Shown one piece after another: positions 131 through 53,861 of a stretch of 64,000 nucleotides of DNA; position 1 is the first letter of the stretch, and every line of letters starts with the position of its first letter. The position numbers were made by a program, and so were the translations under genes. The notes beneath the pieces are model-generated. The model was not told where the DNA came from. It saw nothing but the letters and a program-made list of their open reading frames with translations, and made no database searches. The stretch lies in contig KK106983.1 of NCBI GenBank assembly GCA_000611775.1, positions 2,042,808 through 2,106,807 on the forward strand, written 5' to 3'. The stretch comes from Umbilicaria muhlenbergii. Its lineage: Eukaryota; Ascomycota; Lecanoromycetes; Umbilicariales; Umbilicariaceae.

Positions 131-1253
131 TTATTGCTTGTCCGGAAACCCGAAATTGACGCCGAACTCGGGATACACGTATCTCTTCAACTCTCCTTTC
201 CTCTCCAAATCCCGCGAGTAAGTGTTCAGTATCTCCATGTCCTGCTCGTCCAGTTTGATGATGTTCCTGTTGCCATCGATGCGGGAGGGGGTGACGGATT
301 TGGCGAGGACAGAACTACCCCGCGCGACTACCTCACTCGTAAGTATAGGTTATCCAAAAGAGATTCTGAGGGCCGGGGGGCGTTTGGAGTCCTCACTATG
401 ATAGCTTAGTAGTATAGATGCGACAGGAACATCTCTTCTCTTCGCCACCTCCAGCACCGGTTCGGCCTTGAAAAGCGGACTTCCCGTACTCCCCAGCGGA
501 CTGTAGGCGGTAACATGTATGCCTTTGCTTTTACACAAGTCCACAATTTCCTGCTGGGGTAGCGACGGGTGGTTTTCGATCTGGTTGACAGCGGGCACCA
601 CATCAACGTGCGGGAGTAGTTCCTCGAGGTAACGCTTGCTGTAATTGCATACGCCGATCGCTTTGACTTTGCCTGTTTGCAGCAGCTTCTCCATGTCTTT
701 GTAGGTTTGGACATGTGACCAGGTGGTGTCGAGGTCGCGGGAACCGTCGGGGTGTTTGGGGAATTTGGGGTCGTTCCCTATACGGCCCAACGTCAGCTCT
801 TGATTTTCTAAGTCACAGAAGCCTCTTCCGAATATTCACCTTTTGGATTCATGGGTACAGGCCAATGCATCAGATACAAGTCCACATATTGCAGGCCTAA
901 GCTCTTCAAGCTCATGTCTAAGTTCTCCTCTACTCGCGAATGGTAGGTGCACCACAGTTTTGTCGTTATAAATACATCCTCGCGCTTCACTTTCCCCGAC
1001 TTGAAGGCTTCCCCTAGTCCTTGCCCGACCTCATCTTCGTTGCCGTATACGTAGGCGCAATCGATGTGTCTGTAGCCGGCGGAGAGGGCGTGCGTGACGG
1101 CTTTGGAGACCTCCCCAGGAGCGGATTGCCATGTTCCTGTTGTCAAACAAGAGTCAGTCGCAAGTCGCGCGAAGAGGGAAGGCAAACGTACGTACCGAGA
1201 CCCAGAGCGGGAATCGTAGCGCCTGTGTTGAGCTTGAAGTTGATGTCTGTCAT
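131..1253 (-). CDS. Aldo-keto reductase, probable D-glucuronate/aldehyde reductase of the inositol cluster
   Basis: Four exons on the minus strand: 1253-1196, 1136-840, 777-397 and 327-131, giving 310 aa, the usual AKR length. The NADPH-dependent (alpha/beta)8 reductase tetrad is visible: D45 and Y50 in HIDCAYVYGNEDEVG, K79 in TTKLW and H110 in LYLMHWP. The C-terminal part carries the AKR signature ARGSSVLAKSVTP. It resembles fungal Gcy1/glycerol dehydrogenase-type enzymes, a group that also contains hexuronate reductases. Start chosen at MTDINFKLNTGATIP, which aligns with family starts. The last intron (396-328) has two AG candidates; the TAG acceptor at 330-328 restores the family frame. 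The gene shares a ~1 kb divergent promoter with the inositol oxygenase gene, so the likely substrate is D-glucuronate, reduced to L-gulonate in the cytosol. Family is sure; the substrate is inferred from context. Confidence 0.9.
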
Positions 1254-2263
1254 AGTGCTGGTTTAAAGATGAGATTGGGTGTCAACTGGCAGATATGGAC
1301 TCGTAGATGGGGCAATCGACAGGCGAAGCGACCAATTGATGGCAGATGGCAATGCTCCAAGCACACGGAAATGAAAGCACTGTCGCAGCTGGGGCTACCA
1401 TTTCGATCATGATAGGGCACGTCGTTTGCTGGACAAACCGGTCGGCCCCGCAATGAGGCCAAAAGAGCCTTGGCAGAGCGCGACAGGCCAAAGAGGCGCC
1501 TTCTGGCACGGAAGTCTGGAGGCCAATTCGAAGCCGTGCCTGCCTTGTTGCCTGTCTTGCCCGGTGGTGGGGCTTCGCAGAGAACTGCTCTGCTCGCACG
1601 AGTGTCGTTCTGCTTTTGGTAATGTTCAGAAACTGCCTCTTGAGGGGCCCCCGAAGCTAGTGGCAGCCGTGGATACCTTACCTTACCTTATCCCTTGGCG
1701 CTGGCGCTTAGATACAGCAACTGCCGAGTCAGCACGGCCTGAGCAGTCTCGACGTCCAAGCATAAATCTCAACCCTAACATTTCCTGCCCAAAGCACCGG
1801 CATCTATCCATGCAGACCCGTTTACTGCAATAGGAATATGCAACAGCCTCGTGTCTAGTGGCATGCCAAGTACCTGAGCTTGCCAACTCGGACGCGATCG
1901 ACAATGTAGGGACCGGTAGCTCGGGGCAATTCGTTTGCTTCTGCAACCCTTCTGCAGCTAATTGTTTAGAGCCGCAGCTGTGGCTTCCGAAGATCCCCTG
2001 GGCTTGGGCACCCAGATCCAGATCGATGGCGCCATGCCTTTCCCTGGCCTCTGTGTGCCACCCGTTGCTATTCTAGATGCATATGGGGGGTTAGAAATAA
2101 TCCCCGTGGTCTCCGCTTACTGTTACATATGCAGAACGTGATACTTTGACATTGACCCTTGCTTTTATATGTTTGCGCAGAGATCTGGTAGACGAACATA
2201 TTTCCATCTCATTTGGACCGTCTTTCCTTGAACGTTCACTTCAGTTCTCCCAGTATCAGCAAC
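1254..2263. promoter_or_regulatory. Divergent promoter between aldo-keto reductase and inositol oxygenase
   Basis: About 1 kb without a supportable gene separates two head-to-head cluster genes. It holds a short ACCTT direct repeat near 1676-1690. Sharing of upstream DNA suggests co-regulation; no factor site was identified with confidence. Confidence 0.5.
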
Positions 2264-3272
2264 ATGGCCCCTATTGCAACCGAACCCACCGTCTTCAACA
2301 CCGAGCGTGATGGCCTCGCCCTCGAGGAAACATCCGACAAAATTGACACCGTCAACATCCTCAAGGCAAATATGAAGAATGAGCTGTCCCAAGCCGAAAA
2401 GGACATCCACGAGAAAGCCGCATTCGACGCCGAAAAAGACAAGACCCAGTTCCGCCAATACGAAGCCGCCTGTGACCGAGTGAAGAATTTCTACCGCGAG
2501 CAGCATGAGAAGCAAACAGTTGCATACAACCTAAAAGCGCGCAACGCATTCAAATCCAAGACCCGTGCGGAAATGACCATCTGGGAAGCGATGGAGAAAT
2601 TAAACACTCTCATTGACGAGTCCGACCCCGACACTTCTCTCTCTCAAATCGAGCATCTTCTGCAGTCCGCCGAAGCCATTCGACGAGACGGAAAGCCCCG
2701 GTGGATGCAACTGACTGGCCTGATCCACGATCTCGGCAAGCTCCTCTTCTTCTTCGACGCCCAGGGCCAGTGGGACGTCGTCGGGGACACCTTCCCCGTC
2801 GGATGCGCCTTCGACGAGCGTATCATCTACCCGGACACATTCAAAGGTAACCCGGACCACGACCACGAAATCTACGGCACGAAGAACGGGATCTACACTC
2901 CCGGTTGCGGCCTCGACAACGTCATGCTATCGTGGGGCCATGACGAATATCTGTACCATATCGTCAAGGAGCAATCGACGCTTCCGGATGAATCGCTGGC
3001 GATGATTCGTTACCATTCGTTTTACCCGTGGCACTCGGCGGGCGCGTACATGGAATTTATGGATGAGAAGGACGAGAAAATGTTGGCGGCTGTCAGAGCA
3101 TTCAATCCGTATGATCTATACAGCAAAAGCGATGACGTGCCCAAGGTAGAGGATCTGAAGGTGAGACCATCGTGTTGCCTTGACTGGCTTGGCCGTTGCT
3201 AACAAGCCATTGCAGCCATACTACATGGAACTCATCAACGAGTTCTTTCCCAACAGGGTCGTGCGGTGGTAG
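2264..3272 (+). CDS. MIOX: myo-Inositol oxygenase (inositol to D-glucuronate)
   Basis: Two exons, 2264-3160 and 3216-3272, 317 aa. The 55-nt intron has GTGAG, a GCTAAC branch site and TGCAG. The enzyme is a di-iron oxygenase that cleaves myo-inositol with O2 to D-glucuronate in the cytosol. All six iron ligands expected from the mammalian enzyme can be placed: H131 (EHLLQSAE), H155 and D156 (LIHDLGK), H226 (SWGHDEYLY), H251 (RYHSFYPWH) and D284 (FNPYDLYSK). The C-terminus ends in the conserved MELINEFFP..VVRW. The N-terminal ~90 residues are a charged fungal extension. An in-frame ATG at 2213 would add 17 residues; 2264 is preferred because it follows a CAGCAACATGG context and matches fungal homologues. 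It is the committed first step of the cluster. Confidence 0.96.
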
Positions 3273-4033
3273 TGGCCTGGATCGTAGCGGTTTCAACGTT
3301 TGTTTGGAAGGAAAGCATATAGACCTCTATTTATTCCACGATTAGCGCTTCTATTTCCATGTGATAAGCTGCATGACGGTCCAGATGACAGGAGCAATGG
3401 ACATTTGACCGAATGCAATAGATTGATTTGCGCTATTCAAGAAAGCCCCCCTACTCCAAAGCAGCCCTAGCCCTACAGAGATGCATTCTCCACATCCAAC
3501 TTCCCACACCTGCAGAGCCAATACTAAGGTACCGAAGCACTCCGCACACATTGAATGAAAGGATTTTCCGAAAGGATGGAAGTGTTGTGGAGAAGCGAGC
3601 GCCAAAGGTGGGGCTCGTCAGCCTTACTGTAGGGCTGCCAGACGACCTTCCGTCCCAGTATCCTGGCGGGCCTGGAACGAGGGAATTCTCGCCGAGACAC
3701 GGCCATTGCCGTGCCTGGACAGGGGCAGATTGCCCTGCGTAAGGTACAACGTACAGGACTTGAATTGGACATGTCTTCGTTGGGCAGAATAGCATACTGC
3801 CCCACCGACGTGGAGGGGCAGGACTGGCCTTGGCCGCCTTCTGCAAGGAGGGTCCCCCCGGTCTTCCACGCCACGATATCACGGAAGATCCATGGTCGAC
3901 TCCGTGTGCGATCACAACAATGACCGCTCTTTCCAAGACCGAGTGATTGCACGCCACGTTCCCGCCTACAAATTCGTCCACCACACTCCTCCTCATCACC
4001 GCCCTCTCAATCTCCCACTCCAATACGCCCACA
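3273..4033. other. Intergenic region and promoter of first Gfo/Idh gene
   Basis: No supportable gene. Contains the palindromic segment CGAGGGAATTCTCG at 3678-3691; the hexamer CGAGGG recurs upstream of other cluster genes (7519, 9199). Open frames here lack any recognisable family. Confidence 0.4.
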
Positions 4034-5359
4034 ATGTCCACCACCCAAACCCCGTCCCTCTGCATCGCCGTCGCCGGTCTCGGCCGCATGGGCAAGCGTC
4101 ACGTGCGCACCTTGATCGAGCGAGTCCCTCGTGCCCGCGTCGTCGCCGTGTGCAGCACCAGCGCCGACGAACTAGCATGGGCGGAGGAGAACTATAAGAA
4201 CGCTGGCATTAAGCTGTATGGTTCTTATGAGGAGATGATCCAACACCCCGGACTGCAAGCGGTGTGGGTGTCTACGAGTACGAACGTGCATGCATCGCAG
4301 ACGCTCGCAGCCATTGAGAAGGGCTTGCATGTGCTGTGCGAGAAGCCATTGAGCACAGATATGGAGGAGGTACGTAAAGCACCATCTCGCGGCTCTAAAA
4401 ACCGTGGGCCAACCGTCTGTTGGATGATGATCCGTTCCTCTACCTTCAACAACTCCGCGGGTGCAATATTCTAGAAGTCCAAACTGACCTCAAAAGCACA
4501 TACCAGGCCGCGCACGTCGTCGCCGTCGCAAACGCGCACCCGGAGCTCAAAGTCATGGCCGGCTTCTCCCGCCGCTTCGACGCCTCCTACCGTGACGCCA
4601 AAGCCAAAGTCGCCGCCAACAAGATCGGCACCCCCTTCCTCGTCCGTTCGCAGACCTGCGATCTCCTCGACCACACCGGGTTCTTCGTCCGATACGCCAA
4701 ACTGAACGGCGGCATGTTCGTAGACTGTTGCATGTATGGCCTCTCTCCCCCGCACCCCCCGTCCATCTCAGCCACCACCATCAAGACTCGTGTGATTTCG
4801 ACCCGCAGCCCGCTAACCACGCCCTCCGGACTCTAGCCACGATATCGACCTCAGTCTCTGGTTCCTTGGCCCCGTCGTCCCCAAAGCCGTCTGGGCCGCC
4901 GGCACCATCACGCACCACCCCGAGCTGGCCGCCCTGCACGACGTCGACAACGGCGTCGGCATCGTCGAATACTGGGGCGGCAAACTCGCCTACTTCTACT
5001 GTTCGCGCACGCAAGCGCACGGCCACGACGTCTGCACGGAAATCGTCGGCACGGAGGGAAAAGTGATGGTGAATCTGGTGCCGAGACTGAATGAGGTCGT
5101 CGTTGCTTCCAAGCAGGGGGTGGGGCATGAGGTGCAGCCGGAGTATTGGGAGAAGTTTGAAGACGCGTTTGCGAGGGAGGCGAATGAGTTTGTGGATGCG
5201 GTGGTGGATGGGACGGCGGTACCCGTGGGGCTGGAGGTGGGGCTGATGAGCCTTAAGATTGGGTGGGCGTTGCAGGAGGCGTTGTTGACGGGGGAGAGGA
5301 TTAGGTTTGACGAGAGGGGGGATAGGGTGGGTGGGGATGGGTTGAAGGGGAAGCTTTAG
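4034..5359 (+). CDS. Gfo/Idh/MocA oxidoreductase (inositol 2-dehydrogenase-like), copy 1
   Basis: Exons 4034-4369, 4507-4733 and 4837-5359, 361 aa. N-terminal Rossmann fold with GLGRMG at 15-20. The catalytic triad of the inositol dehydrogenase family is present: K104 in CEKP, and D185 and H189 in DCCIHDIDL, matching K97/D172/H176 of the Bacillus IolG enzyme. The residue after beta-2 that is Asp in NAD-dependent IolG is Ser here (VCSTS), which suggests NADP preference. The intron phases (0 and 2) rebuild the family sequence without gaps. It is paralogous to the gene at 9373-10521. Candidate activities are myo- or scyllo-inositol 2-dehydrogenase, or one of the hexonate/keto-hexonate steps missing from this cluster. 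Family certain, substrate open. Confidence 0.92.
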
Positions 5360-5873
5360 GGTGGGGGGGTGAGGAACGGGGATGCTGGATGGTCGTTGAT
5401 AGTGCGAGTAGATTGCGTTGGTCGTGCAAACAATGATTCTATGTTTTTGCCTGCACTAGTGTTTGCCGTTGTCTTCATGCTGGGCGGCCCCTTTCTCCAC
5501 CTCAGCCCTATCTCACAGGCGCAAGGCCAAAATAAATGCAGTTGCACCAAGGGGGGGGGAAGGGGGGGGGGTGGAGGGCTCTACCCAACAAAGCACCGAC
5601 TTCAGACCTTAGAGCCCTGAACTCCATAAGTTTAACAAAGCCATTGAGCTCCGTCTTCCGCAGCCAGAACAAGAAATCCCCAGAAATTGCAATCCCCTGT
5701 TGAACCTCGTTGCTATTATCCCGCCCAATTCGCCTTCTACTAAAAATGGCGACTGACTGAACCATTGACCGCCCGCCCGGCACTCACGTAGGGGCAGCAC
5801 TACCAACATCGACCGACCAAGCCTAACCCTTCCCCTCCCTCCCCCCAACCTCCCCAACCCTAACACCCACCCA
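5360..5873. other. Convergent 3' region with G-runs and a block repeated at 10.9 kb
   Basis: Region between converging genes. Holds poly-G tracts near 5550-5573. A ~120-bp segment (about 5590-5710) has a diverged copy downstream of the second Gfo/Idh gene (about 10895-11040), sharing CAGACCTT, GCCATTGAGC and CCAGAAAT in the same order. No gene supported. Confidence 0.5.
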
Positions 5874-7339
5874 TCACGCTTCTCCCCCGCAATCCCCCCC
5901 CATCTCCACCAAAACCTTCATCACCAACCCGCCCTCCTCATCCCTCTCCCTCCCCGCCATCTCAAACGCGCCCCGCACCGCCTCCAGCCCCGCGAACCGA
6001 TGCGTGACCAACTTTTCCAAATCCGGCAACACCCCTCCCTCTCCCTCTGCCTCTGCCTCTGCCTCTCTCCCTCTCGCTCGCTCATCAACAGCGGAGCGTG
6101 CGACGAGTCGAATCGCCTCGTCGTAAGTATCCGCGTAGCGGAAAACACCGACGAGATCGACTTCGCGGAGGGCGGCGGCGGAGACGGGGAGTGTTTGGAC
6201 GGGGGTGCCCATGCCGACGAGGAGGACTTTGCCGCCGGGGCGGGTCGCCTGCGGGTAGGGTGTTAGAGAAGTCCCCATCGGTCGGGAGGGTAAAAGGGAG
6301 AAAAGGAAGGAACAGACAAAGATAGCAGCCTGAGTGCACGCCTCGACGCCCGTACATTCAAACACCGTATCCACCTCTCCCAGCACCCCCCCCGTCGCCG
6401 TCGGCGTATGCGTTTGCGTCCGCCCCGCCCCCGCCGCGACATCCCTCGCGTGCTGGAGTTGCGCGTCGACAGTTTGGGCGCGTGTGCGGGGGACGACGAA
6501 GCCGGCGTGGGCGAAGCCGTGGCGGACGGCGAAGTCGACGCGGTCGGCTTGGATGTCGGCGATGACGACCTGGGCGGCGCCGGAGACTTTGCTCATGGCG
6601 GCGCAGAGGAGGCCGACGGCGCCGGCGCCGAAGACGAGGACGCTGCTGTGGGGGGGGAGGCGGGCGCGGCGGGAGGCGTGGATGGCGACGCTGAGGGGCT
6701 CGAGGAGGGCGGCGAGGGGGAGGGAGACGGAGGCGGGGAGTCTGTGTGCGCGCGGAGGTGGTTAGGGTGGTGGGGTGGGAGTGGAGGGGGAGATGGAGAT
6801 GGGAGTCGGTACTTGTGACACCAGCGCGCTGGGTGGTTGACCCGCTCCTGCAGGGTGCCTTGGAAATGCGGCGACGCCTTGGCTGAGCTGCGGAACTTTA
6901 GCCCGGCGCAGATGTTGTATCGTCCTTCTTTGCAGCGGGCGCATTCCGTGCATGGGATGCCCACTTCGAGGGCGACGCGGTCGCCGATCTGGTGATCGTG
7001 CACGTCTGAGCCGAGGGCTGTGACGACGCCGGCGGATTCGTGGCCGAGGGATAGGGGCTCGCGGACGAGGATGTCGCCGTTGCGGTAGTGGGTGTAGTAG
7101 TGGAGGTCGGAGCCGCAGAGACCGGTGGCGCGGATGGAGATTTGGAGGTCGGTGGGGCCCGGGGGGGGGAGGGGGCGGGATTCCTGTTGTGGAGGTGTTA
7201 GCCTGCGCAGGTCTTACACCAGCAGTGGACTTGCCAGTCGAAGATCCTTGGGGCCGTGGAGGACTGATGCCTTGACTGAGGAGCCTTTTGGTGGTGCGTG
7301 AGGCGCGTCGCCGTTGGTTTGGGGGAGAGTGGACGGCAT
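5874..7339 (-). CDS. Zinc medium-chain dehydrogenase, sorbitol/xylitol/L-idonate dehydrogenase type
   Basis: Four exons on the minus strand: 7339-7235, 7183-6813, 6741-6318 and 6248-5874, 424 aa. Catalytic zinc ligands C58 (LCGSD) and H83/E84 (LGHESAG); structural zinc cysteines C113, C116, C119 and C127 (CTECARCKEGRYNIC); nucleotide-binding VFGAGAVG in exon 3. The family includes polyol dehydrogenases and the L-idonate 5-dehydrogenase that yields 5-keto-gluconate, the role that fits the neighbours. Intron 1 best uses a GC donor (CTG|GCAAGT, 7234-7184), which keeps the uninterrupted family motif; a GT donor 15 nt further would insert five residues. Intron 3 (6317-6249) is 69 nt, in frame and without a stop. 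An Arg/Glu-rich low-complexity insert (AREAEAEAEGEGG type) lies before LEKLVTHRFAGL. The promoter is shared with the SDR gene. Confidence 0.92.
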
Positions 7340-7620
7340 TTTGAGGATGTGGGTGAGAAAGTTAGGGTGGACGACTGTGCATTTCTGAGATGGCGAGGAA
7401 GGAAATAGAGGGTTGAGAGTGAGGCATTGGGTAGACTACAAAGGCAGCTAGACTTGGCCAGTCCATGGGGAGAAGTTCCTCCAGTAAGCGTCAAACCCTC
7501 GTGCGGTTAAATGCAGACCGAGGGTCCTCCATCCCTGCGATATATTATTACTACTTTAACTCCGGCTGCGTGTTGGTCTTCATAGTGCTTGCTCTTCTAT
7601 TAATCGAAGTTTGAGAAGAG
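7340..7620. promoter_or_regulatory. Compact divergent promoter with a 7-bp inverted repeat
   Basis: Only 281 bp separate the starts of the zinc dehydrogenase (-) and the SDR (+), so they very likely share control elements. An inverted repeat ACCCTCG (7495-7501) / CGAGGGT (7519-7525) with a 17-bp spacer lies in it, a layout compatible with binding of a dimeric zinc-cluster factor. The binding role is inferred, not shown. Confidence 0.45.
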
Positions 7621-8536
7621 ATGGCGAACACACTCCCCAATATGTTCTCACTACAAGGGCAGACTGCGTTGGTAACGGGCGGAACGAGAGGCATTGGACA
7701 AGCTGCGGCGATTGCACTGGCGGAAGCTGGAGCAGATGTTCTTTTAGTGCAGGTATGACTGCAGCATCTGCTCTTGATCACGCGTTGACGTTCTGTCTCT
7801 TCGAATGCTAAGGGTACGCAGAGAGATCATTCCCAAACAGCGACGAAAGAAGCCATCGAAGCCCTAGGCAGAAAAGTAGCCATCTACCCCGCCGACCTCT
7901 CATCCCCAGACTCCGTCGCAGCTCTCGTCCCCACCATCCTCCACGACGGACACCGAATCGATGTCCTGGTGAACTGCGCCGGCATACAGCGACGACACCC
8001 CAGCCACCAATTCCCCGACAACGACTGGAACGAGGCACGCCACCCCCTCGTACCCCAGCGCGGTCGGTCTTTCACTAACCCAGTGCTGCCAGGTCCTGCA
8101 AGTCAACCTCACTTCCGTCTTCACGCTCTGCCGCGAAACCGGCGCCCACATGCTCGTCCAGCCACCGCGCGAAGCCGGCCGTCGCGGCGCCATCATCAAT
8201 TTCGCGTCGCTGCTCTCCTTCCAAGGTGGGATCACCGTGCCCGCCTACGCCGCGTCCAAGGGCGCCGTGGCCCAACTCACTAAGGCGCTGGCGAATGAGT
8301 GGGCGGCGAAGGGAATCAACGTCAATGCCATTGCGCCGGGATATATTGCCACTGAGATGAATACGGCTTTGATTGAAGACAAGGACCGCGCGGCGGGTAT
8401 CTCAGCCAGGATCCCGGCGGGGAGGTGGGGGAGGCCGGAGGACTTCAAAGGGGCGGTGGTTTTCTTGGCGAGTCAGGCCAGTTCGTACGTTTCGGGCCAT
8501 GTGTTGACTGTGGATGGGGGCTGGATGGGCCGGTAG
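7621..8536 (+). CDS. Short-chain dehydrogenase, probable 5-keto-D-gluconate reductase
   Basis: Exons 7621-7752, 7822-8034 and 8093-8536, 262 aa, a classical SDR length. Cofactor motif TGGTRGIG at 19-26, NCAG in place of NNAG, catalytic S154, Y167 and K171 (YAASK). C-terminus ends [15 protein letters not shown]. It belongs to the KduD/gluconate 5-dehydrogenase-like branch; a fungal enzyme of this type reduces 5-keto-D-gluconate to D-gluconate in the D-glucuronate pathway. Intron 2 again needs a GC donor (AACGAG|GCACGC, 8035-8092) with a CACTAACCC branch site; the only nearby GT would leave a 43-nt intron and add five residues not seen in the family. Divergent from the zinc dehydrogenase, which would supply its substrate. 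Confidence 0.92.
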
Positions 8537-9372
8537 ATTGGAATCGGTAGTCTCGTACTCATATCTCGGGTGGTAATCGGTATACTGAGTCGTGCATCTT
8601 TCCCCGCATCGCGTCACATGCCTCGAAGAATTCGTCAAGGCAGGTGGGGGATCGTCAGTGCAGCGGAGCGTCCCGCAGCCACATGCACGCGAAGCTGAAG
8701 CTTATGAAAAGGGCAATATTCCCCCGACTGCTGGAGTTTTCCGGCAGGTTTCTTGTTGAGCTTCCGAGCTTATTCTACGGACGGCAATCTTCCTCCAATT
8801 GATCGCTGCTGGTTCCGTGCAGTTTCCTAGTCGAGATAGAGGAGGAAGTTCTTCCAAGGCACCTCTGAATCCCATAGCCGACGTACCTCTGCAGCGCATT
8901 GACTGGTCATAGAAATCCACGGGAATTCGAACCCCACGGTATGGAGAAATGTCATTCCTTCCCCAGTCTCCAATCCCCACTCTTCGCATCAAGCGGCATT
9001 CCGCTTCCCGAGGCACCCCGTGGCATTTCCGTACTCAGGGTCCTGCACGATGGACCAGTGACTTGTGCTGATTTATTTACATACGAAAAAGCTCGCTCGC
9101 TGTTCGTCATCAGCATCAGCATCATTCTTCTCCACGCACTCACTTAAGCCATTGGATCACTCAGGTACGTGTTGCATAGGCCACACACATCTAATGCCCG
9201 AGGGAACGCCAGACGGCTGACGACTCAGTGATTTTCGCCATGGCAGCTCCTTTCCCTCTATCCTCCTTTCCCCTGCTCAAAAAGAACTCCCATCCACGTC
9301 CGCCTGCAGCTCCAGCTGCCCCAAACTCCTTTCTATCCTCCACCGAACCTCTGCTCCCACCGAGCCAAACCA
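8537..9372. other. Intergenic region upstream of second Gfo/Idh gene
   Basis: No gene supported. A CGAGGG hexamer occurs at 9199-9204, 170 bp before the next start codon. An ATG at 9240 opens a proline-rich frame that is not in frame with the enzyme and is probably leader sequence. Confidence 0.4.
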
Positions 9373-10521
9373 ATGGCACCCGCGAAGCTCAAGATCGGCT
9401 GCGCAGGCCTCGGCCGCATGGGCAAGCGCCACGCCCTGCACTTCCTCAACCGAACACCCCGAGCAGAATTAGTGGCAGCCAGCACACCCGATGACGCCGA
9501 GATCCAGTGGGCAAAAGTACACCTCGAGCCCTACGGTGTCCGACTATACAAAGACTACGACGAGATGCTCAAGCAAGAAGGTCTGCAAGCCGTCGTAATC
9601 GCATCTGTAACGACAGTGCACGCAGACCAAGCCATCAAAGCCATAAACGCCAACAAGCACGTCCTATGCGAAAAGCCGCTATCAACGAGCGTGGAGATCG
9701 TAAGTCCAGCCTTGACCTGCTCCTTCCCCAGCTACAACCACCAGAGACCCAGCTAACTCCCCCTTTCTTCCCCCAAACAGTCCCAATCCGTCGTCGACGC
9801 CGCGAAGAAAAAACCCCACCTCAAAGTCATGTGCGGCTTCTCCCGCCGCTTCGACGACTCCTACCGCGACGCCTGGGCCAAAATGGACGCGGGCCTCATC
9901 GGGCGCCCCTCCATCTTCCGCTCCCAAACGTGCGACATGCTGGACCCATCCGGCTTCTTCGTCGCCTACGCCGAATTCAGCGGCGGCATCTTCGTCGACT
10001 GCAGCATCCACGACATCGACCTGGCGCTCTGGTTCTTCGGCCAAGACAGCGTCGTCAAGAGCGTCGTCAGCAGCGGCATCACGGCCGTGCAGCCGGAGCT
10101 GCGCAAACACAACGACCGCGACAACGCGGTCGGGATCGTCGAGTTCTACGGGGGCCGGATCGCGTATCTTTACTGCTCGCGGATGATGGCGGCGGGGCAG
10201 GAGGACAGCACGGAGGTGATTGGGACGGAGGGGAAACTGACGGTGAATGCGCAGCCGATGGCGAATCTGGTGAATATCTACGAACCGACGGGGATTCGGC
10301 GCGAGATCCCGCCGAATTACTACGGGAGGTTCGAACAGGCGTTTGTGAACGAGGCGAATGAGTTCACGGCCGCATGTTTGGAGGATGGGAAGTTGCCGAT
10401 GAAGTTGACGGGGGCGGTGCAGGCGGTTAAGATTGGGTGCGCGTTGCAGGAGAGTTTGATTACGGGGATGAAGATTTGGTTCGATGAGACGGGGAGGAGG
10501 GTGGAGAGGGCGCAGATGTAG
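9373..10521 (+). CDS. Gfo/Idh/MocA oxidoreductase (inositol 2-dehydrogenase-like), copy 2
   Basis: Exons 9373-9699 and 9781-10521 (81-nt intron, GTAAGT/AACAG), 355 aa. GLGRMGKRH near the N-terminus, catalytic K101 (CEKP), D182 and H186 (DCSIHDIDLALW). Strongly similar along its whole length to the copy at 4034-5359, including CGFSRRFD-type and RSQTCDxLD blocks, but it lacks the second intron of copy 1. The cofactor-discriminating position is again Ser (AASTP) instead of the Asp of NAD-type IolG. Retained with the same residues as copy 1, so both are probably active and may work as a pair: oxidation and reduction of neighbouring intermediates, or interconversion of inositol isomers. Substrate not determinable from sequence. 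Confidence 0.93.
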
Positions 10522-11600
10522 GGGGTGGGTGGGGTGTGAATCGGGGCCAGGGTGGGGTTTGGTTATAGATTTCCGTGGCATGGAGAGGGGGGGTTGTATA
10601 GACTTGGGTAATATATATATTTCTACTCCATTATCTGCTAGCAATAAGACGTCACTTGTGCTCTGCAATAATGTATACACCTATGTTTGGTCTTCATCCA
10701 CGATCGAACAAGCGAGGCCGGACGAGTATGGTTTGCTACGTCGGTACTGGGGATACTGGGCAAGCTGCGATGGGTTGCCGTGTTGACCTTGGTAACACGG
10801 CTTGCCATCAATTATACTGCTTCGACATGACCGGGAAACAGGCGTGTCGTGGAAATCAATGGCAGTGGCAATACGGAGGCCCTCATACCCAAAAAAGCGC
10901 CGACCTCAGACCTTGAGGACCTAGACCTTGAGGATTCAGACCTTGAGGATTCAGATGCTGTACATTTGATTTGACAAGCCATTGAGCCCCATATTCGGCA
11001 GCAATGATAAGAGTTCCAGAAATGGTAGTCTGCTGTGTATTAGTTGGTGGGGACCGCCTGGGTGCTCGTACTTGGAATTGTAACTGTTCTCACCCCACGC
11101 CTGGCCCGCCCTGCCTATCGGAGTAAGCACCTTACTCCACACTTGAACTCGCGTCAGAGAAGCAAGGACAGAAATTACTTAGAAGCTACAACGGGATGGT
11201 AGGGCTCCAGGCGGAGAATGTGGAGTGGCGACGGCAAAAAGGTAATCACCGTCCGGAAAGCGTAATGGCCGGCGCAACGATCGGGCCGAAGTTCACCGCT
11301 TAGGGCTAAGCAAGCGTGACAAGGTCCTCAATTAGGTTACCTTTGGCAATTCTATTTCCACCCGGCGAACAAGGTCTAATTATTCACAAATGCAGTGAAT
11401 CAAGATTTCCGGCCTATTTCTTACAATGTGAAACCGCGGATTGAGGGACACATGGCCTGAACACACAAATCCATCGCTGACTGTGATCGTAAGCCGTAAT
11501 GATGCCGGTGTCCGAAGGAACCCATCGTATCCATGATACCGAGTCTCGACTTCAACGATCGCCCTGGGTCGACCTTCTTCCGAGAGCGAAGAGCGGTAGA
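10522..11600. other. Intergenic region with short tandem repeats and a duplicated block
   Basis: Holds a run of tandem CAGACCTTGAGGA-type units at about 10903-10955, inside a block (10895-11040) resembling the 3' flank of the first Gfo/Idh gene. The remainder up to the gluconokinase start shows nothing recognisable. Confidence 0.5.
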
Positions 11601-12217
11601 ATGGGGCCTCAACGGCGACATATATTCGTGGTGATGGGCCCGGCGGGCTGTGGCAAGAGCACCGTGGCCCGGGTATTGGCGGAGAGCTTGGGGCTCCCCT
11701 ATGTCGAAGGCGACGAGGTAACCGCGAACACCAGCCAAGCCCACGTCCGCAAGCGTCCGCGACTAACATGATCAAAAACCCCCAGCTCCATCCCGAATCC
11801 AACGTTCAGAAAATGGCCGCCGGCATCGCCCTCACAGACCAGGATCGGTGGGATTGGCTCATCTCAGTGCGTCGAAGCACCGTCAAAGAGCTCTCAGAAG
11901 GCACATGGGGAGTCTTTCTTTCGTGCTCGGCGCTGAAACAGAAATACCGCGACGTGATCCGCATCGCCGCGCTCGAGAACCGCAACGTCTCGGTCCATTT
12001 CCTCTACTTGCACGCCGACGAGAACGTCCTCCTGCGGCGCGTAGGGGCGCGCCAAGGGCATTTTATGAAAGCCACGATGGTACGGCAACAGCTGGCGAGT
12101 TTGGAAGAACCCAGCGTCGTTGAGAAAGATACTGTGACGGTGGATGTTGATCAGAGCACGGAGGAGGTGGTGATGGAGTCGTTGAAGCTGGTGCGGGATA
12201 TGCTCGGCGGGTATTGA
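11601..12217 (+). CDS. Gluconokinase (D-gluconate to 6-phosphogluconate)
   Basis: Exons 11601-11717 and 11786-12217 (68-nt intron with GACTAACATG branch site), 182 aa. P-loop GPAGCGKS at 13-20 and the gluconokinase signature rebuilt across the splice: GDELHPESNVQKMAAG, then DQDRWDWL. The C-terminal LYLHADENVLLRRVGAR..GHF block is also family typical. The enzyme phosphorylates D-gluconate with ATP, feeding the oxidative pentose phosphate pathway. An in-frame ATG at 11499 would add 34 residues; 11601 gives the normal family start (short lead then P-loop). It lies at the far end of the cluster and is the logical last step after the SDR. Confidence 0.95.
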
Positions 12218-19610: not shown

Positions 19611-22600
19611 CTATTCCGGTATCTGCTTAGGAACCACCCACCAAGGCAGCACAACACAGACCGTCAAAAACGTCCACGCCAACGTAGGTAAAGCCACCGC
19701 ATTCGAAAAATCCCCCGGATGGGTAATGAGCCAATACGGCACAAACCACACCGTAGCCAAGCACAAAACGAGTCCTAGCGCCGCGATCCTGATCATGGCA
19801 GGTTGTTCCTGGGCGTGTAGACCCCAACCCTCGACTCTGTCCGAGCCGAGCGACCCCGTGACTTTAATCGGTAGTTGCGAGCAGAGGAATTTCCGAGTCG
19901 CCGCCTTCCTGGGATCGTTGTAGAAGCGCATGAATTCGCCACGGCCAATAGGTAATAGAGGCGGGCCCGGGGGGTTGGTGATGCGGTAGTGGGGTTGCTG
20001 GCCTTGGGGTGGTAATTCCTCTCTGAAGCCTGGGTCGGCGAGGGAGGGTTCGTACTGGACGAACTGTAGGCGCGCGGGGTTAGTTGATGCTCGATCGCAC
20101 GATGGACACACTGGTTAGGTTGTATATACCTTGACGAAGCGGAAGTAGTAGATAACTTGCAGTGAGATCCAATACCGCCATCCGCGGAGGCGTTTGTATT
20201 CCCTGCGGAGCATCTCGCATAATGCCTTATCTGTGACGTGATTTATATCGGACGAGTTGTCTACGAGCTTTATTTGACCGAGTTGCTTCACTAGAGAGTC
20301 ACGATTCACGCAGACGAAGAGAAATCCGCCAGGTTCGTCTTTGCCCTCAGGGGATGCGACTAAGTTGTGCCTTTTTCTAAGCTTTGCCGGCGGCCGCCTT
20401 GGTTGTTCTCGACCTGATACTTGGGGTGCGGAAGGTCCAGTGTTTGCAGTCGGGCCTGGAAGCGGTGATGCGCTATCTCTCACTGAATCCCCGCTGGTGG
20501 TAACATTCTGAGCAGTATCGCCGCTTGTGGCTTCAGAAACGTCTTTTGCCGCGTCCAACTGAGCTTGACGCCAGAGACAGTTCAATGACCAATGCCTGAG
20601 CCATTTGATTTTATGAGGCGCCTCAGCATCGAGCACGTCGATGTGGAAGGTCTCGTTGTCCTAGATTTGGTCAGCCTTTCCTGCATTTGAAGGATGGTCT
20701 GCACGCTTACATATTCCCATTCTATCCGGCTGTAACCCGGGGAAGGCGGTCGGCATGCAGGGGATAGAGGCCACCATGCGACAGGGGTCCCTAGGACATC
20801 TTCAATAGTGCACTTGATTCTGTTCGACGTGGAGGTGTTAGAATCATGAGATGCGCAAAGTCGCACATTCCCACGTCCACCTTGCTCACACAACGAGCAG
20901 TTGGCTGACATGGAGGGCTCAGTAGCTTGTACGGGTTCGGATGTATTCGCGTTGCGATGACTTCGAATTGGCGGACCACTTATATTGCTCTCGACCGGGG
21001 CAGTGGTAGATGCTATTTGGATGTTGTTATTGCATAGTCTATGAGTGAAAGCACCGGCAGTGACTTGTTCAGGTTGTGAATCTACTTTACCTCCCTCAAT
21101 GCTGTTAAGGTTCGTAAGTTCCGACTCTTCAAGACTTGGGCCGTCATCGTTGCTTCTTTCCGCAAGTTTAGCTGACAAGATGTTGTGCTGGATATTTCCG
21201 TCGCTCCTAGGTTTATCATCAAATTGACTGGCAACCACGGTTTGACTGCCGCCCCTATGGTGATGAAATTTAGACACGTCACTAAGATGATCTCCTTTTC
21301 CCCTTACTGCCCTGCCTTCGCTAGACATGGACGTAAGATGATCTTCTTTTCCCCTTACTTCCCTGTCTTCGCTAGACATTCCTCCTTTCCCCCTTACTTC
21401 CCTGCCTTCGCCAGACATTCGGGTGAAGGTGGACGCAGTGTCTAGATCATCCGCGATATCACCCCTTACACCATCTGAGTCTGATTCAGAGTCAGACACA
21501 TCCCATCTCCAATAGCGTTCCTGTGTCTTGTATTTGTCAACTTTGGCGTTTTGAGGCCTTTCTTCCCCCTCCTTGTCAACAACGTAGATGCCCGGTTCAA
21601 ACACTGTGTCGAAATGACGCATAGATGAAGCGGTATCAATCTGGACATTGGAGGGCCCGGTTTCGGCTGAAGCATCATCAAAAGTCCACACTCCCTTCTT
21701 CGGCTGTCTCCTCAAGATTAACTGCATTAACAGTGTCACTTCCCCAGCGTTGCCAAATTTTCTATCCTCGGCAATGATGGCAGCTAGATTCCATTCATAG
21801 TTCGAGTCTTTTTCCTGCATCTTCATCTCCTCAAGCAGTCGATCGATTTGTTTTCGCTTAGGTCGCGTCAGCGCCTTATACTGCTTCAACACGAGAAGTG
21901 CGTCTTGACTGATCGACATCTCATTCTGAGCCACCCGTGCCCACGACTCAGACTGGCCGATGCCAAGCTTCGTCTTTAGATAGATGTACCCACGGTAATA
22001 AGTTGCTAAGTTTTCTCGACCGTCTGAGGAGGGTTTTGAATTATGGACTTTGTTATTTCGCTCGCTGCTGAGATCTGGGCTGGCATCCTGAACGTATCGC
22101 GCCTTGGCAGCTGGCCTGATATTCAAGCCATCATACGTGCTGCTGTTCCCCTTGATCTGGCCGCTCAAGTCAGGCGTTGGCGACATATGGTGACGCTGGC
22201 TAATCGGTTCCATGTTCTTGTTAGCTGAGTACCTGTCTGCATCCCCTTCAAATTGATAACCCATGGTGTCAGCTTTGGGGCGCTCTGGTGGGGCAGATGG
22301 TACGACCATGACGTTGATGAGGTCCCCAATAAGCTGCTGATTATCCTTCCCCTCAATATCAGCCCCTTTCTCAAGAAGTAAACGTGTCACTGCCTCATGA
22401 CCATTGCGAGCTGCAAAGTGCAGTGCAGTCCACCCATTATTATCCTTCCCCTCAATATCAGCCCCTTTCTCAAGAAGCAAACGTGTCACTGCCTCATGAC
22501 CATTGCGAGCTGCAAAGTGCAGTGCAGTACACCCATTATTATACTTCCCCTCAATATCAGCCCCTTTCTCAAGAAGCAAACGTGTCACTGCCTCATGATC

Positions 22601-24439
22601 ATTGAGAGCTGCAAAGTGCAGTGCAGTCCACCCATTATTATCCTTCCCCTCAATATCAGCCCCTTTCTGAAGAAGCAAATGTGTCACTGCCTCATGACCC
22701 TGGTAAGCTGCTCTGTGCAATGCAGTCAACCCATTATAATCCTTTCCCTCAATATTAGCCCCTTTTCCAAGAAGTAGATACGTCACTGTCTTATGACCAT
22801 GCTCTGCTGCCCAAAACCACGCGGCCTCTGGATTATAGTTTGCGGCATTGACCTTGAATCCAGCATCTCTCAACAGCTTTGTGGCTTTTCTTCGTTCAGC
22901 TTCTCGGGTTGATATAGCATGTGAGGGCAGTACGGTTTCAGACAGCGCTTGAGGTGAAATCGCAGTGAACCCCTTTTGATCTTTAATGTTGTCTGTTGAG
23001 AGCTCAAAGTTCATGCTGCTGTTACCTTCTTTCTTTTCTTCTTCACTCCATCCTCTTTTGTTGTCCTTGCCAACTGAATTATCTTTCGCTACGTCGTGGC
23101 TCCACCAGGAATCTGAGGACTTGCTGTGTAATCCTATCACTTGATCTCTGGTCTTGTCACGGACTTCCTTCTTGAGTGTATGAGTTGTCAAGCTTCCACT
23201 TGTCGTATAGAGCTTGCGGTGTACAGGTAGTTGTAGGAAGGAGGTGTTCAAGGTGCTGTTTGTCTTCACATCACTGACAAGTCTAGCTTGACCAAGCTTC
23301 GCAGAGTCCGGTTTCTGAGAGTTCAGAGCTGTAGAATCCGACAGTGACTCCTGCTCTGTTTCAAGCCAAGGAGCTCGCAGCGCTGTCTCAGCTGTCAGGC
23401 GGTCCCCTGGCCAGCGGACCAAAAGGCTCTTGACAAAATGAATACCAGCAGCGCTAAGCCTCAGAGACAATGCTTCTTCCGGAAACTGTATCCTTCCCTG
23501 GCAGAATTTATTCACCTCAGACGGGGTAGGAAATGGCACTGCCCCTTGAGCAGAAATGGTATAAACAACACAACCCAGTGACCACATGTCGACAGCATTG
23601 GTATAGACAGATGTTTTCAGCTCTTCTATTAGTCCGTAGACCTCTGGCGCTTGGTAAGTACTGATGCGGGTGTGCAAGTTTGTCTGCTCATCGACTCGTT
23701 TGGCTATTCCAAAGTCTCCGATTTTTACCCACCAAGGACCCGGGGATTTCTGAACAACAAAGATGTTCTAAGAGAACCGGGATTTCATAAGTAGATATTT
23801 CAATCAAATGACTTCATGTCTAGCTGGCGAGAAGTGACTTAGAAGAGAGGGACACAAACCTGAGGCTTGAGATCATGATGAGCAAACCCCTCCGCATGCA
23901 TGATCTTCAGGCCCTTAAGGAGATCAATGGTGATCTGTTTGATTTCATGCTCCGCCATTGAACTTTGAAGGTATTGAGCTAAATCGCCGTTTGGAAAATA
24001 TTCCATAGCCAAGAACACGGTATCAGCGTTCTCAAAAAAGCCAAAAAATTTGACAAGAACGTCTTCCTCTTCGTACTAGACCACGGTCAGTTCAGAATGA
24101 AAACACCGCACCAACACTTCATACCTGGGCTTTTGAAAATTTGGCCAAAGCCAGCAGCTCTCGCTTGTAATCAACCTTCCAGCTCTGCATCTTGGCTTTG
24201 TCTATCTTCTTGACCACTCTAGTATCTGCAATTTCATCCCCTTGTTGATGGACCTCCAAGCACACCTCACTGAACAACCCATAGCCAAGGATCCTATCTT
24301 TGTACCATCTCTCCTCAACTCTCTCCTTCTGCATACCACGACCGCGATTGGTTCTGTATGAAATTTGCAAAGTATAGTTAGGGAAAACCTCTGCTTCTAG
24401 CTTAAAGTGATCTAGTGATTCCGAAGCTGCGGAAGCCAT
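19611..24439 (-). CDS. Protein kinase-ankyrin repeat protein with C-terminal membrane segments
   Basis: Five exons: 24439-24125, 24075-23860, 23767-20711, 20660-20130 and 20063-19611, 1523 aa. Ser/Thr kinase domain from about residue 45 to 320: glycine loop GYGLFSEV, Lys77 in RVVKKI, catalytic loop HHDLKPQN (His replaces Arg of HRD), DFG at 195-197, APE in YQAPEVYG. Then about five ankyrin repeats (residues ~480-650) of TALHFAARNGHEAVTRLLL type, a long Ser/acidic linker with SSEGREVRGKG-type repeats, and a fungal C-terminal region with FLFVCVNR and a GWRYWISLQVIYYFRFVK block split by the last intron. Two hydrophobic helices near the end probably anchor it. Not part of a known pathway; the architecture suggests a receptor or self/non-self signalling kinase. 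The function is an inference. Confidence 0.85.
21282..21422. repeat. Three-copy ~45-bp repeat in the kinase-ankyrin linker
   Basis: Three units containing CCCCTTACTNCCCTGNCTTCGC and AGACAT, coding (minus strand) MSSEGREVRGKG-like motifs. The third spacing is shorter than the first two. Confidence 0.8.
22341..22835. repeat. Tandem 99-bp ankyrin-coding units
   Basis: Five tandem 99-bp units; unit boundaries recur at 22341, 22440, 22539, 22638 and 22737. Units 1-3 are nearly identical at the nucleotide level, including third codon positions; the outer units are more diverged. Each codes one 33-residue ankyrin repeat. Confidence 0.92.
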
Positions 24440-27512: not shown

Positions 27513-30500
27513 ATGTTCCGCCGGAAGCGGTCCCAGTCAAGTCCGGTACGTTGGGTCACATCACTAGAGCTGGGGAACCATCCAAGTTCTCTGCAACGCA
27601 GAGCTCGTAATGCAGAGTATCTGCTAACACATGGAGTCTTCTAGCCCATCAATACCCCAGTCACCTCAGCTGCAAGCTCAGCTGCCGCCCAGGCCTTTCT
27701 TGCCAACCGAGTTTCCAATGGACAACTCTCAGCCGCTGCTGCAGCGGCAGCTTTACGTTCGCATACCACATCCCCGGAGCCCGTTGGCTCGATACAAACC
27801 AAACGGATGGTACAAAGGCGTCAATCGGTTACGTCTAATGGCAGCGCTGCAGTTCGTCCTGCTGGTATGCAGCGGCAGAACAGCTCTGGGTCTATGACGG
27901 AGAGGACATTTCGCGATCCTTCACCAGCCCGCGGGGCTCCAGCACGCATTCGCGCCATTGACCCACCTCCGGTGCCCTCTCTTCCACGTGGATATGTATC
28001 ACCACCTCCCATCCCGGCCAAGTCGGACCGACGAGCATCAAGTGTTGAGCCACCGCAGCGCGTGAGCTCGCCTCCGCCTAAGGCGGGCGGCAGGGGTGTA
28101 AGCTTGGACAGAGGGCCTGGTGTCATGACTGCGAGACCGAAGGGTCAAGCCAAGTCACGAGTGACCAGCCTGACCAGCGTCGCTGAGGCGGCGCAAACGG
28201 ACAATCGAGGGTCTATCAATTTCTCCCGTCCGATGAGCCCACCACTATCACGTCCTACGTCGCCAATAAACGAACAACGGCCAATGTCTCCCCCCAGCGC
28301 ATTAAGATCAGGTGGGAAACCATTGATAGATTATCGGCCAGTTGAGACTTTACGGAATGGCGAAGCCGAGAGCATACAAACGTCGCTGCAACAGGCAGCG
28401 AACACTCCGGTGAAGAAGAAGAAAAAGAAGGTCGTTACAAAGAATGCGGCCGAGGGGAGTCATCTGGCGAATGCGACAGCTGGTGCTGCTCCTACTGCGT
28501 CGAATGTTGCCCCAAGCGGGCAAGTAGAGTTACTCTCGTCCACGGTATCGCCATCCAGCTCAGTATCACAACCCACCCCTATGTCTGATCCTGCAAATGT
28601 AGCACCGAAGAAAACGAAGAAGAAGAAGGTCGCGCCTGTTAACACGGAGGACACGGATCAGAGGATTGACTCCAGACTTAGCTATGTCTCAGACTCGGAC
28701 ACTGGATCAGAACAGAGCTACTCGTCGGATAGGCCTAGAACCTTCAACGTTAGGCCCACGGCTTTCCTAACGAAACAGCCTTCGATGGTTCGAGAAGATC
28801 GTGAGGCCGAAGAGCTAGAAGAACGAGGTATGACTGCAGCTCAGAGTAACGGTCAACCACTCTCAAACGGAACACTTACTTCCAAGCCTGCCGCGGCCCC
28901 TGCAAATACCTCGAAGAAGTTCACCGACAGTCGGCAACATACCCGGTCTGTCAGCCAGCCTTCACCTGCCTTAACTGCGAATGATCCAAATCCTCCAGCG
29001 ATGCCGTCCTTGAGTACGTCTACCGGCAATGGCAGGGGTAGTACCGCCGCACGTGGAGCAAGACATCAATCTCTGAGTCCAGCACGAGCTGCTCACTTTT
29101 CTTCTCAACTCCAAACATCAGAAGGAATCAAACATAACCCCCTTCCACGCTCGGTGTCTCCTGCCAAGTCTGCATTGAAACATTCTCCATCTCGGGGGAC
29201 ATCGCCAGTAGGCAACATGCCTGGTGCGTTGAGCCGAGCTCATGGTGGTGCACCAAGCGAAGCTTCAGACACCACCTCAGTGATATCGGACGACGGCAGC
29301 AGGCTGGCGAAGAACAGGAAGAACGTCCGTGTCAGCTTCGACAACGATACCGTTATCTTAGGTCGTGGAGCAAGCCCGCCCACAAGTCCGGATTCTCCGA
29401 TGTTACAGAGCCCTCAAAACAATGACACGACGAAAAAGGGATGGTTTAGAGGACGTGACAAGAAGTCAACAACCCAAGAAGTTGATGATGTAATTAAGCC
29501 CACCCCCACCCTTCCTTCCTTTGGAAGTGTTCGAGGTAAGAACGAGAGAGTCGAAACCCAAGACACACCACAAACCTCTTGGGCTTCAGATGCGCTTGCT
29601 CGAATGAACCTGTCAAGCGACCTTGCAGTCGGAGCCATTATTTCTCAGGATCTCGCCCACAAGACTACAGATCCTGGCTCTAATGTCAAAGCAACCTCTA
29701 ATGAGCCTTTACCGCCATTGGTAACCTCGGTGGAAGGTACAGGTGATAATTCAGACACCGAAAGTAGTGTTGCTAGTGCGAACCTGGAGGAAGGGGACAG
29801 AGCACAGGACGATTCCGTACCTTCGATCGCTGTTCAGCCAGCTACTCCCGGCTTGGAAGAGCCACAGATATCCGGGAACTGGTCTACCATGCCTGGTGGC
29901 TACCGGCATTCCATCGACTTCGAAACTCGAGATGCTCCATCTGACTCCCCTATCGTCGAGCATCATCCAACCGATCCAACACCTGCTTCAATCGGTATTG
30001 CGGAACCGGAACCAACAGCCGTTATCGATGCCGAGCACCATCCTCACCCCCCGATAGGAGAGCTATCTGAAACTTTACGCCATCAGATTGAGCCAAAAGA
30101 CGAGGAAGAAATTGACGACACAGATGGCAGTATCTACAGTGACGCAGCTGAAGACTTATCTGACCTCGAAGGTGATGGCTTCGGATCGATCAATGCGATT
30201 GTCGAAAGTCCAGCATTACTAGCGCTGAGTGGCACTGGACTTGCCATCACCACTCCCCCGGATAGTCCAAGTGTCCGCTTGCCTGCGACAAGGGCGACAC
30301 CGCAGATTCCCTCATTGAGGCAAGAAAGCGAGCTGTCAGAACCGGGACCTGATGAAGGCTGGGGTCGGGCACAGGCTTATTGGAGCGGTTTGAGTCAAAG
30401 TAGGAAGCAACAGCTGGAACAAGCGTCTAGTTCGGTGGATCCGAAACAAACTCTTGAGGAACCGAAGCCGAAACCGAAGAAGAAAAAGAGGATGGTGCCC

Positions 30501-36395: not shown

Positions 36396-36656
36396 TGTTG
36401 AATTTCGCCGATTCGCCGCCGAGCAGACGTCATTGGGGCAGGGGTTTAGGGCAGGGGTTCTAGCGGGAAAAGCAGTCACGTCATGGGTGTACGTACGTTT
36501 AGGCTTAGCGAAAAGCTCCTGAACGTGTATATTAACGGTTCGAAAGCCTCGAGTTTCTGCTTTCTTCCTTACGTTCATTTTATTCAATTTTGGACCGATA
36601 TTTAGCTAGTGCAATAATACATTTATTTGGCCTCTAAATAATCGTTCTATACAACA
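36396..36656 (+). mobile_element. MITE copy A (261 bp, non-autonomous DNA transposon)
   Basis: Starts TGTTGAATTTCGCCG and ends CTATACAACA; terminal inverted repeat TGTTGAA. Same sequence family as 36691-36951 (inverted) and 53597-53856. No coding capacity. Left flank ATAGC, right flank CTCGG, which do not match each other but match the flanks of copy B in swapped fashion. Differences between copies are mostly transitions. Confidence 0.9.
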
Positions 36657-36690
36657 CTCGGAAGCACTCACTGGACTCCACGGAGGCTAT

Positions 36691-36951
36691 TGTTGAATAG
36701 AACGATTATTTAGAGGCCAAATAACTGTATTATTGCACTAGCTAAATATCGGTCCAAAATTGAATAAAATGAACGAAATGACGAAAGCAGAAACTCGAGG
36801 CTTTCGAGCCGTTAATATACATGTTTAGGAGCTTTTCGCTAAGCCTAGACATACGTACGCCTATGACGTGACTGCTTTTCCCGCTAGAACCCCTGCCCTA
36901 AACCCCTGCCCCAATGACGTCTGCTCGGCGGCGAATCGGCGAATTTCAACA
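36691..36951 (-). mobile_element. MITE copy B (261 bp), inverted relative to copy A
   Basis: Reads TGTTGAATAGAACG to GAATTTCAACA on the + strand, the reverse complement of the family. Flanks GCTAT (left) and CCGAG (right). Its right end lies inside the last exon of the membrane-protein gene and provides that gene's present stop codon at 36884. Confidence 0.9.
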
Positions 36952-53591: not shown

Positions 53592-53596
53592 ACCTG

Positions 53597-53856: not shown

Positions 53857-53861
53857 ACCTG

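Follow-up and report, generated by a model that had tools for sequence, protein, structure and literature searches.

A gene cluster in Umbilicaria muhlenbergii adjoins myo-inositol oxygenase to families of the fungal D-glucuronate pathway, with two Gfo/Idh proteins as candidates for its C2 steps

Gene content and layout of the cluster

A 64,000-nucleotide stretch of Umbilicaria muhlenbergii DNA (contig KK106983.1, positions 2,042,808 to 2,106,807 of the forward strand; hereafter the window) contains seven adjoining genes at 131-12217. In order, they encode an aldo-keto reductase (AKR), a myo-inositol oxygenase (MIOX), a Gfo/Idh-family protein (GFO1), a zinc-dependent dehydrogenase (ADH), a short-chain dehydrogenase/reductase (SDR), a second Gfo/Idh protein (GFO2), and a gluconokinase. 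An earlier sequence-only reading had proposed that the set degrades inositol and D-glucuronate to 6-phosphogluconate. The seven adjoining genes and the families it named were confirmed by an exon-by-exon rebuild and by matches to Pfam and NCBIfam models, and its limits fall at the stop codons of the two outermost genes. The features are as follows, in window coordinates.

131..1253, minus strand: AKR, aldo-keto reductase, 310 amino acids, 4 exons (1253-1196, 1136-840, 777-397, 327-131)
1254..2263, no strand: AKR/MIOX intergenic region, 1010 bp, divergent, possible bidirectional promoter judged by order and distances
2264..3272, plus strand: MIOX, myo-inositol oxygenase, 317 amino acids, 2 exons (2264-3160, 3216-3272)
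4034..5359, plus strand: GFO1, Gfo/Idh-1, 361 amino acids, 3 exons (4034-4369, 4507-4733, 4837-5359)
5874..7339, minus strand: ADH, zinc-dependent polyol/L-idonate-type dehydrogenase, 424 amino acids, 4 exons (7339-7235, 7183-6813, 6741-6318, 6248-5874)
7340..7620, no strand: ADH/SDR intergenic region, 281 bp, divergent, candidate bidirectional promoter judged by distances (compare the 455-bp gluD-gluE promoter; PMC5306355)
7621..8536, plus strand: SDR, 262 amino acids, 3 exons (7621-7752, 7822-8034, 8093-8536)
9373..10521, plus strand: GFO2, Gfo/Idh-2, 355 amino acids, 2 exons (9373-9699, 9781-10521)
11499..12217, plus strand: gluconokinase, GntK/IdnK type, 216 amino acids, 2 exons (11499-11717, 11786-12217), alternative start at 11601

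All seven models are open from Met to stop, contain introns, and have no internal stops; splice sites were set by eye from the reading frame, splice signals, and family resemblance. Eleven of the 13 introns placed are GT-AG and two are GC-AG (ADH intron 1, 7184-7234, and SDR intron 2, 8035-8092). The intergenic gaps measure 1010, 761, 514, 281, 836, and 977 bp in cluster order, and no extra genes were seen in them, as judged by reading only. AKR/MIOX and ADH/SDR form divergent pairs. Pfam was run on all seven proteins and NCBIfam on six (MIOX was left out), and the family motifs looked for are present in all seven. The AKR gene ends 130 bp from the left edge of the window, so the cluster may extend beyond it. 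A degraded element common to 5582-5700 (3' of GFO1) and 10886-11036 (3' of GFO2), with 29 bp at 90% and about 60 bp at 73% identity, may be a dispersed repeat or the trace of an old duplication.

The substrates assigned below, any co-regulation of the genes and, above all, the roles of the Gfo/Idh proteins are inferred. MIOX matched PF05153 over the whole profile (431.9 bits; cut-off 25) and aligned with two solved inositol oxygenases (E = 3.5e-70 and 4.2e-67). Its H, HD, H, H, and D motifs align with those of solved MIOX and are taken here, in identity and position, to be the iron ligands. The enzyme would open the ring of myo-inositol with O2 to yield D-glucuronate. AKR scored 162.4 bits against PF00248 (Aldo_ket_red) and holds the HID..Y, K, and H motifs, which presumably act as the tetrad. 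Among the matches listed, its nearest solved structures are mostly aldose or aldehyde reductases. The earlier assignment to the AKR family stood, and the preference for uronates claimed with it is putative. AKR is a candidate D-glucuronate reductase that would produce L-gulonate. The Trichoderma reesei AKR Gar1 also turns D-glucuronate into L-gulonate (PMC8622349).

The ADH protein contains the Pfam domains ADH_N and ADH_zinc_N. Its Cys, GHE, Glu, and four-Cys motifs presumably have their customary roles. The top NCBIfam model was L-idonate 5-dehydrogenase, at 173.3 bits and thus below the cut-off of 469. The best PDB match was a sorbitol dehydrogenase (E = 3.7e-70), and the best solved matches are sorbitol, ketose-reductase, xylitol, and L-arabinitol enzymes. 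The L-idonate/polyol-type family was upheld, and L-idonate is a putative substrate alongside sorbitol, xylitol, and L-arabinitol. SDR scored 204.5 bits against adh_short_C2, 321.7 bits against kduD (cut-off of 338.85 not reached), and 203-231 bits against gluconate 5-dehydrogenase models, all under their own cut-offs; SDR motifs are present, and 234 NCBIfam models were matched. The gluconokinase passed the TIGR01313 cut-off (197.5 against 113.75 bits) and has the P-loop GPAGCGKST. In the proposed pathway, ADH would convert L-idonate to 5-keto-D-gluconate, SDR would convert 5-keto-D-gluconate to D-gluconate, and gluconokinase would convert D-gluconate to 6-phosphogluconate.

Relation to known pathways and clusters

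In Aspergillus niger, the reported route runs from D-glucuronate through L-gulonate, 2-keto-L-gulonate, L-idonate, 5-keto-D-gluconate, and gluconate to 6-phosphogluconate (PMC5814732), and the agreement of the cluster with it, noted previously, holds at the level of families. The five non-Gfo families are those of the reported A. niger pathway with MIOX added (PMC5814732, PMC5306355, PMC6353982). The A. niger enzymes are GaaA, GluC, GluD, GluE, GluF, and gluconokinase (GluC-GluF are now GurA, GurB, IddA, and KgrA), and the cluster has the AKR, zinc dehydrogenase, SDR, and gluconokinase families in common with them, presumably for the same reactions. GluF (265 amino acids, against 262 for SDR) was formerly annotated as a 2-deoxy-D-gluconate 3-dehydrogenase (PMC5814732), in keeping with the KduD-like character of SDR. 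Unlike the A. niger pathway, the cluster physically adds MIOX and two Gfo/Idh genes. To the right of 12.2 kb, all 33 open reading frames (ORFs) of at least 140 amino acids kept after overlap removal were scanned with Pfam, a procedure that can miss genes with short exons. Within the window, no GluC/GluD-type D-2-hydroxyacid dehydrogenase was matched in the seven genes and these 33 ORFs, which is a further difference from A. niger. The last three proposed steps are those of the Escherichia coli L-idonate pathway (L-idonate 5-dehydrogenase, an SDR 5-ketogluconate reductase, and gluconate phosphorylation; PMC5814732), which, unlike the cluster, is bacterial and does not start from inositol or glucuronate. 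Between A. niger and E. coli, the similarity of the 5-ketogluconate reductases is below 35% (PMC5814732).

Among the papers listed in a full-text literature search that left most subscription papers and all bioRxiv preprints uncovered, none was recognized as describing MIOX clustered with glucuronate genes or as assigning a Gfo/Idh enzyme to L-gulonate. The earlier remark that no description of the full set as a cluster was known agrees with this, but partial precedents exist. In the parts of the literature available, the only glucuronate-specific genes of A. niger described as clustered are gluD-gluE, a divergent pair with a common 455-bp promoter that occurs in most sequenced aspergilli (PMC5306355). 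There, one short divergent promoter serves both an L-idonate dehydrogenase gene and a reductase gene, as may be the case for ADH and SDR; the partner of ADH is, however, the SDR of the next step and not a 2-keto-L-gulonate reductase. The second precedent is from A. fumigatus, in which AFUA_2G10230 (inositol oxygenase) and AFUA_2G10240 (NAD binding Rossmann fold oxidoreductase) carry consecutive tags (PMC3757043). They probably mark a neighboring MIOX-oxidoreductase pair, in which AFUA_2G10240 would, by its annotation, be a Gfo/Idh protein. Both were lower in a strain lacking metR when it was starved of sulphur (fold changes of 0.506 and 0.497, respectively), among 288 genes that fell (PMC3757043). 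AFUA_2G10230 also occurs in a dendritic-cell data set, in which inositol oxygenase was reported as raised (PMC3021540, PMC6540932).

Inositol breakdown joined to the glucuronate pathway in a fungus would explain how a mould could draw carbon from inositol, such as that of phytate, independently of the bacterial iol route. The latter was rejected as the leading explanation for this locus: no IolE-, IolD-, IolB-, IolC-, IolJ-, or IolA-type gene was seen by Pfam match among the seven genes and 33 ORFs in the window.

The Gfo/Idh proteins and inversion at C2

The five assigned enzymes do not cover the conversion of L-gulonate to 2-keto-L-gulonate or that of 2-keto-L-gulonate to L-idonate, so the description of the pathway as self-contained was overstated. 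According to papers of 2017 (PMC5814732) and 2026 (PMC13158570), no fungal enzyme had been identified for the first of these steps, and the cluster names two specific candidates for it. The earlier reading had assigned neither Gfo/Idh protein to a step and made no mention of this gap. By our own reasoning, L-gulonate and L-idonate differ at C2 only, and L-idonate and D-gluconate at C5 only. The route therefore involves two inversions, each consisting of ketone formation followed by reduction from the opposite face. ADH and SDR would perform the C5 inversion. Because two steps and two genes are then left, the Gfo/Idh proteins are proposed for the C2 chemistry, where they would catalyze at least the first half of the inversion, from L-gulonate to 2-keto-L-gulonate. 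Of the two, GFO2 would more probably be the L-gulonate 2-dehydrogenase; GFO1 would act as the opposite-face reductase or else as an inositol dehydrogenase. That at least one of the two is an L-gulonate 2-dehydrogenase, with GFO2 as the preferred candidate, is put at even chances.

The Bacillus subtilis enzymes IolG and IolW both belong to the Gfo/Idh family. Together they convert myo- to scyllo-inositol by inverting a carbinol through the ketone (PMC3878828), and a C2-inverting Gfo/Idh pair is plausible on that model. GFO1 and GFO2 might form a dedicated pair, namely an L-gulonate 2-dehydrogenase and a 2-keto-L-gulonate reductase unrelated to GluC/GluD, such that seven genes would account for seven steps; this stronger proposal is rather unlikely. 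Only with both C2 steps performed by these two proteins would the cluster be complete. In that case, one fungal cluster would take inositol to 6-phosphogluconate and the Gfo/Idh family would gain a new class of substrate.

GFO1 and GFO2 are paralogs with 50% identity, and both contain PF01408 and further GFO_IDH_MocA domains, which in GFO1 include C-terminal ones. The catalytic triad of inositol dehydrogenases (Lys97/Asp172/His176 in B. subtilis IolG numbering; PMC9603128) is kept in GFO1 (K104/D185/H189) and GFO2 (K101/D182/H186). In this Lys-Asp-His triad the two resemble Bacillus IolG, IolX, and IolW, pairs of which invert a carbinol via the ketone; they differ from the Bacillus enzymes in falling below the iolG cut-off, in the altered substrate motif of GFO2, and in the linear aldonate proposed as substrate. 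Motif V of inositol dehydrogenases is Y-G-Y or has, in most cases and with exceptions allowed, H, R, or K as its second residue (PMC9603128). GFO1 has H-G-H, which fits the myo/scyllo group, whereas the A-G-Q of GFO2 follows neither published pattern; the solved relative 4mkx/4n54 (4n54 is Lactobacillus casei IDH2; PMC9603128) has H-G-Y. At the motif III position (GFxRRFD) that Met or Asn occupies in enzymes of group i and in some of group ii (PMC9603128), both proteins have Ser. By its changes in motifs V and III, GFO2 departs from the inositol enzymes, as does the ortholog described below. At the equivalent of IolG position 35, GFO1 has Ser and GFO2 Thr, which are small as in NADPH enzymes but not followed by the usual basic residue; 4mkx/4n54 also has Ser.

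One scan of genome contigs for relatives returned six loci. A GFO2 ortholog with introns, identical at 289 of 355 residues (81.4%) and showing the same motif-V change, was found on NYXK01000143.1 (1-11127). This contig is filed under a Deltaproteobacteria metagenome-assembled genome (MAG). The neighbors of the ortholog are a Fungal_trans_2-domain gene and an EMP70 gene, and because of these and the intron-bearing genes the contig looks like fungal sequence that was wrongly grouped with a bacterial genome. The ortholog follows the Fungal_trans_2 gene head-to-tail, and the latter is a possible pathway regulator. Of nine matches to a GFO1 query in the MAG, four lie on this contig, and all four represent the GFO2 ortholog.

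The remaining five loci of the scan are weak relatives (best-segment identity of at most 44%), and four of them cover only part of the query. Among the matches listed, the top plasmid homolog of both proteins is from Sphaerotilus sulfidivorans, with 43.5 and 43.9% identity to the two. It has the RSQTCD and GFFV stretch common to the GFO proteins and, like GFO1, H-G-H in motif V, so GFO1 looks ancestral in this motif and GFO2 derived. On the plasmid (10953-16468 of the locus), the homolog lies beside a separate iolG and genes for a tripartite tricarboxylate transporter binding protein, an SDR, and an FAD oxidoreductase. This neighborhood is possibly a sugar-acid pathway and could reveal the ancestral substrate; its SDR is 32% identical to the cluster SDR over part of the length only. 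Viral contigs contained distant Gfo/Idh relatives only (36 loci, best-segment identity of at most 34%) and no MIOX relatives. A DNA pattern for RSQTCD, restricted to CGN arginine codons, was found in five of 52 genomes of one phylum, against three for the reversed control. One of the five is the MAG contig itself, and at the five pattern loci of the other four genomes no relative of the seven cluster proteins was present.

Alternative explanations

Several observations weigh against the proposed C2 role or against the inositol-to-gluconate cluster as a whole. The best NCBIfam model for both Gfo/Idh proteins is TIGR04380 (iolG, inositol 2-dehydrogenase; 257.4 bits for GFO1 and 253.5 for GFO2). 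Their nearest solved relatives are the inositol dehydrogenases 4mkx, 4n54, and 3cea (E = 1e-58 for GFO1 with 4mkx/4n54), and GFO1 shares, as a motif match only, the types of contact described in a scyllo/myo enzyme, the motif-V His among them. To our knowledge, most characterized Gfo/Idh enzymes act on cyclic substrates, not on linear aldonates. Neither a transporter for sugars or inositol nor a regulator of the Zn2Cys6/Fungal_trans type was matched in the window ORFs scanned. MIOX, SDR, and ADH had no match on NYXK01000143.1 (a search made without a positive control gave no MIOX match in the whole MAG, and none of the 21 SDR and six ADH matches in the MAG lie on this contig); with no more than 2.8 kb of sequence upstream of the GFO2 ortholog, the contig does not allow clustering in that fungus to be judged. 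The consecutive A. fumigatus tags and their joint drop among 288 genes say little about inositol. The reduction of 2-keto-L-gulonate in A. niger is the work of GluC/GluD, which belong to another family, and deletion of gluC abolishes growth on D-glucuronate (PMC4870679).

The iolG match, the solved relatives, and the motif-V His of GFO1 would suit an inositol-catabolic cluster of another kind, which is a serious though less likely rival. Here GFO1 and GFO2 would be inositol dehydrogenases feeding scyllo-, chiro-, and myo- isomers via inososes to MIOX, and the C2 steps would fall to unlinked enzymes, a dehydrogenase and GluC/GluD-type reductases. The position of GFO1 next to MIOX fits such a role, as does that of the A. 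fumigatus oxidoreductase tag next to the MIOX tag. However, both proteins fail the TIGR04380 cut-off of 355, which is used for bacterial and archaeal proteins, by about 100 bits; the motif-V residue is lost in GFO2 and its ortholog, and Ser occupies the Met/Asn position of GFxRRFD in both paralogs. The closest plasmid homolog found (43-44% identity) also has a separate iolG beside it, and the tricarboxylate transporter binding protein, SDR, and FAD oxidoreductase in its neighborhood hint at an acid substrate.

A different polyol or sugar-acid route, such as the animal-type route through 3-keto-L-gulonate, L-xylulose, and xylitol, would make ADH a xylitol or sorbitol dehydrogenase and SDR an L-xylulose reductase. 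The solved matches of ADH are compatible with this, and an SDR that matches 234 NCBIfam models is hard to assign from sequence. The best models for SDR are nevertheless KduD and gluconate 5-dehydrogenase, no decarboxylase or xylulokinase family was matched in the seven genes and 33 scanned ORFs, and the gluconokinase would have no role. The route is improbable, and the unexplained gluconokinase led to its rejection as the leading explanation.

Least probable is that the seven genes are neighbors by chance and are separately regulated and used. Mixed orientation and gaps of 0.3-1.0 kb speak for such a set, and the promoter comparison also counts in its favor and against a co-regulated cluster. 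Exact words in five upstream regions were compared with 60 dinucleotide shuffles (degenerate motifs were not searched), and no cluster-wide word stood clearly above the shuffles. No 7-mer was common to all five regions (shuffle mean of 0.02), and no 8-mer occurred in at least four (0.07). Two 9-mers occurred in at least three regions (mean of 0.28, maximum of 3), and no 10-mer did so in either the regions or the shuffles. Three 11-mers (against 2.7) and no 12-mers (against 0.9) occurred in at least two. No single spacing of CGG-N-CCG was found in all five regions. Against coincidence, all seven consecutive genes fit one plausible route, the MIOX and GntK families among them are taken as rare per genome, and the two divergent pairs each have a common upstream region. 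By rough reasoning, a chance neighborhood is implausible: with about 10,000 genes assumed and MIOX and GntK each present once or twice, the two would fall within seven genes about once in several hundred to a thousand, an estimate that precedes any count of the remaining matching enzymes.

To the right of the cluster, the nearest genes are a pyridoxamine-phosphate-oxidase-like ORF and a DUF3669 ORF, with no evident link to the pathway. A protein kinase-ankyrin ORF (20585-23767) contains a 99-bp tandem repeat at 22340-22810, whose copies are 83-91% identical and perhaps represent recently amplified ankyrin repeats. Long frames with no Pfam match lie at 27645-32177 (1511 amino acids), 42155-45787 (1211 amino acids), and 45522-51755 (2078 amino acids), the last with internal repeats near 49.4-50.5 kb. 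A palindromic element at 36396-36951 (about 556 bp, with 92% identity between the two strands read in opposite directions), of which a further copy of about 260 bp is present at 53596-53857 (93-94% identity), resembles a mobile element with inverted repeats. At 60264-63780, weak SesA and AAA matches, below the cut-off, are followed by strong TPR matches, which suggests an NLR-like gene.

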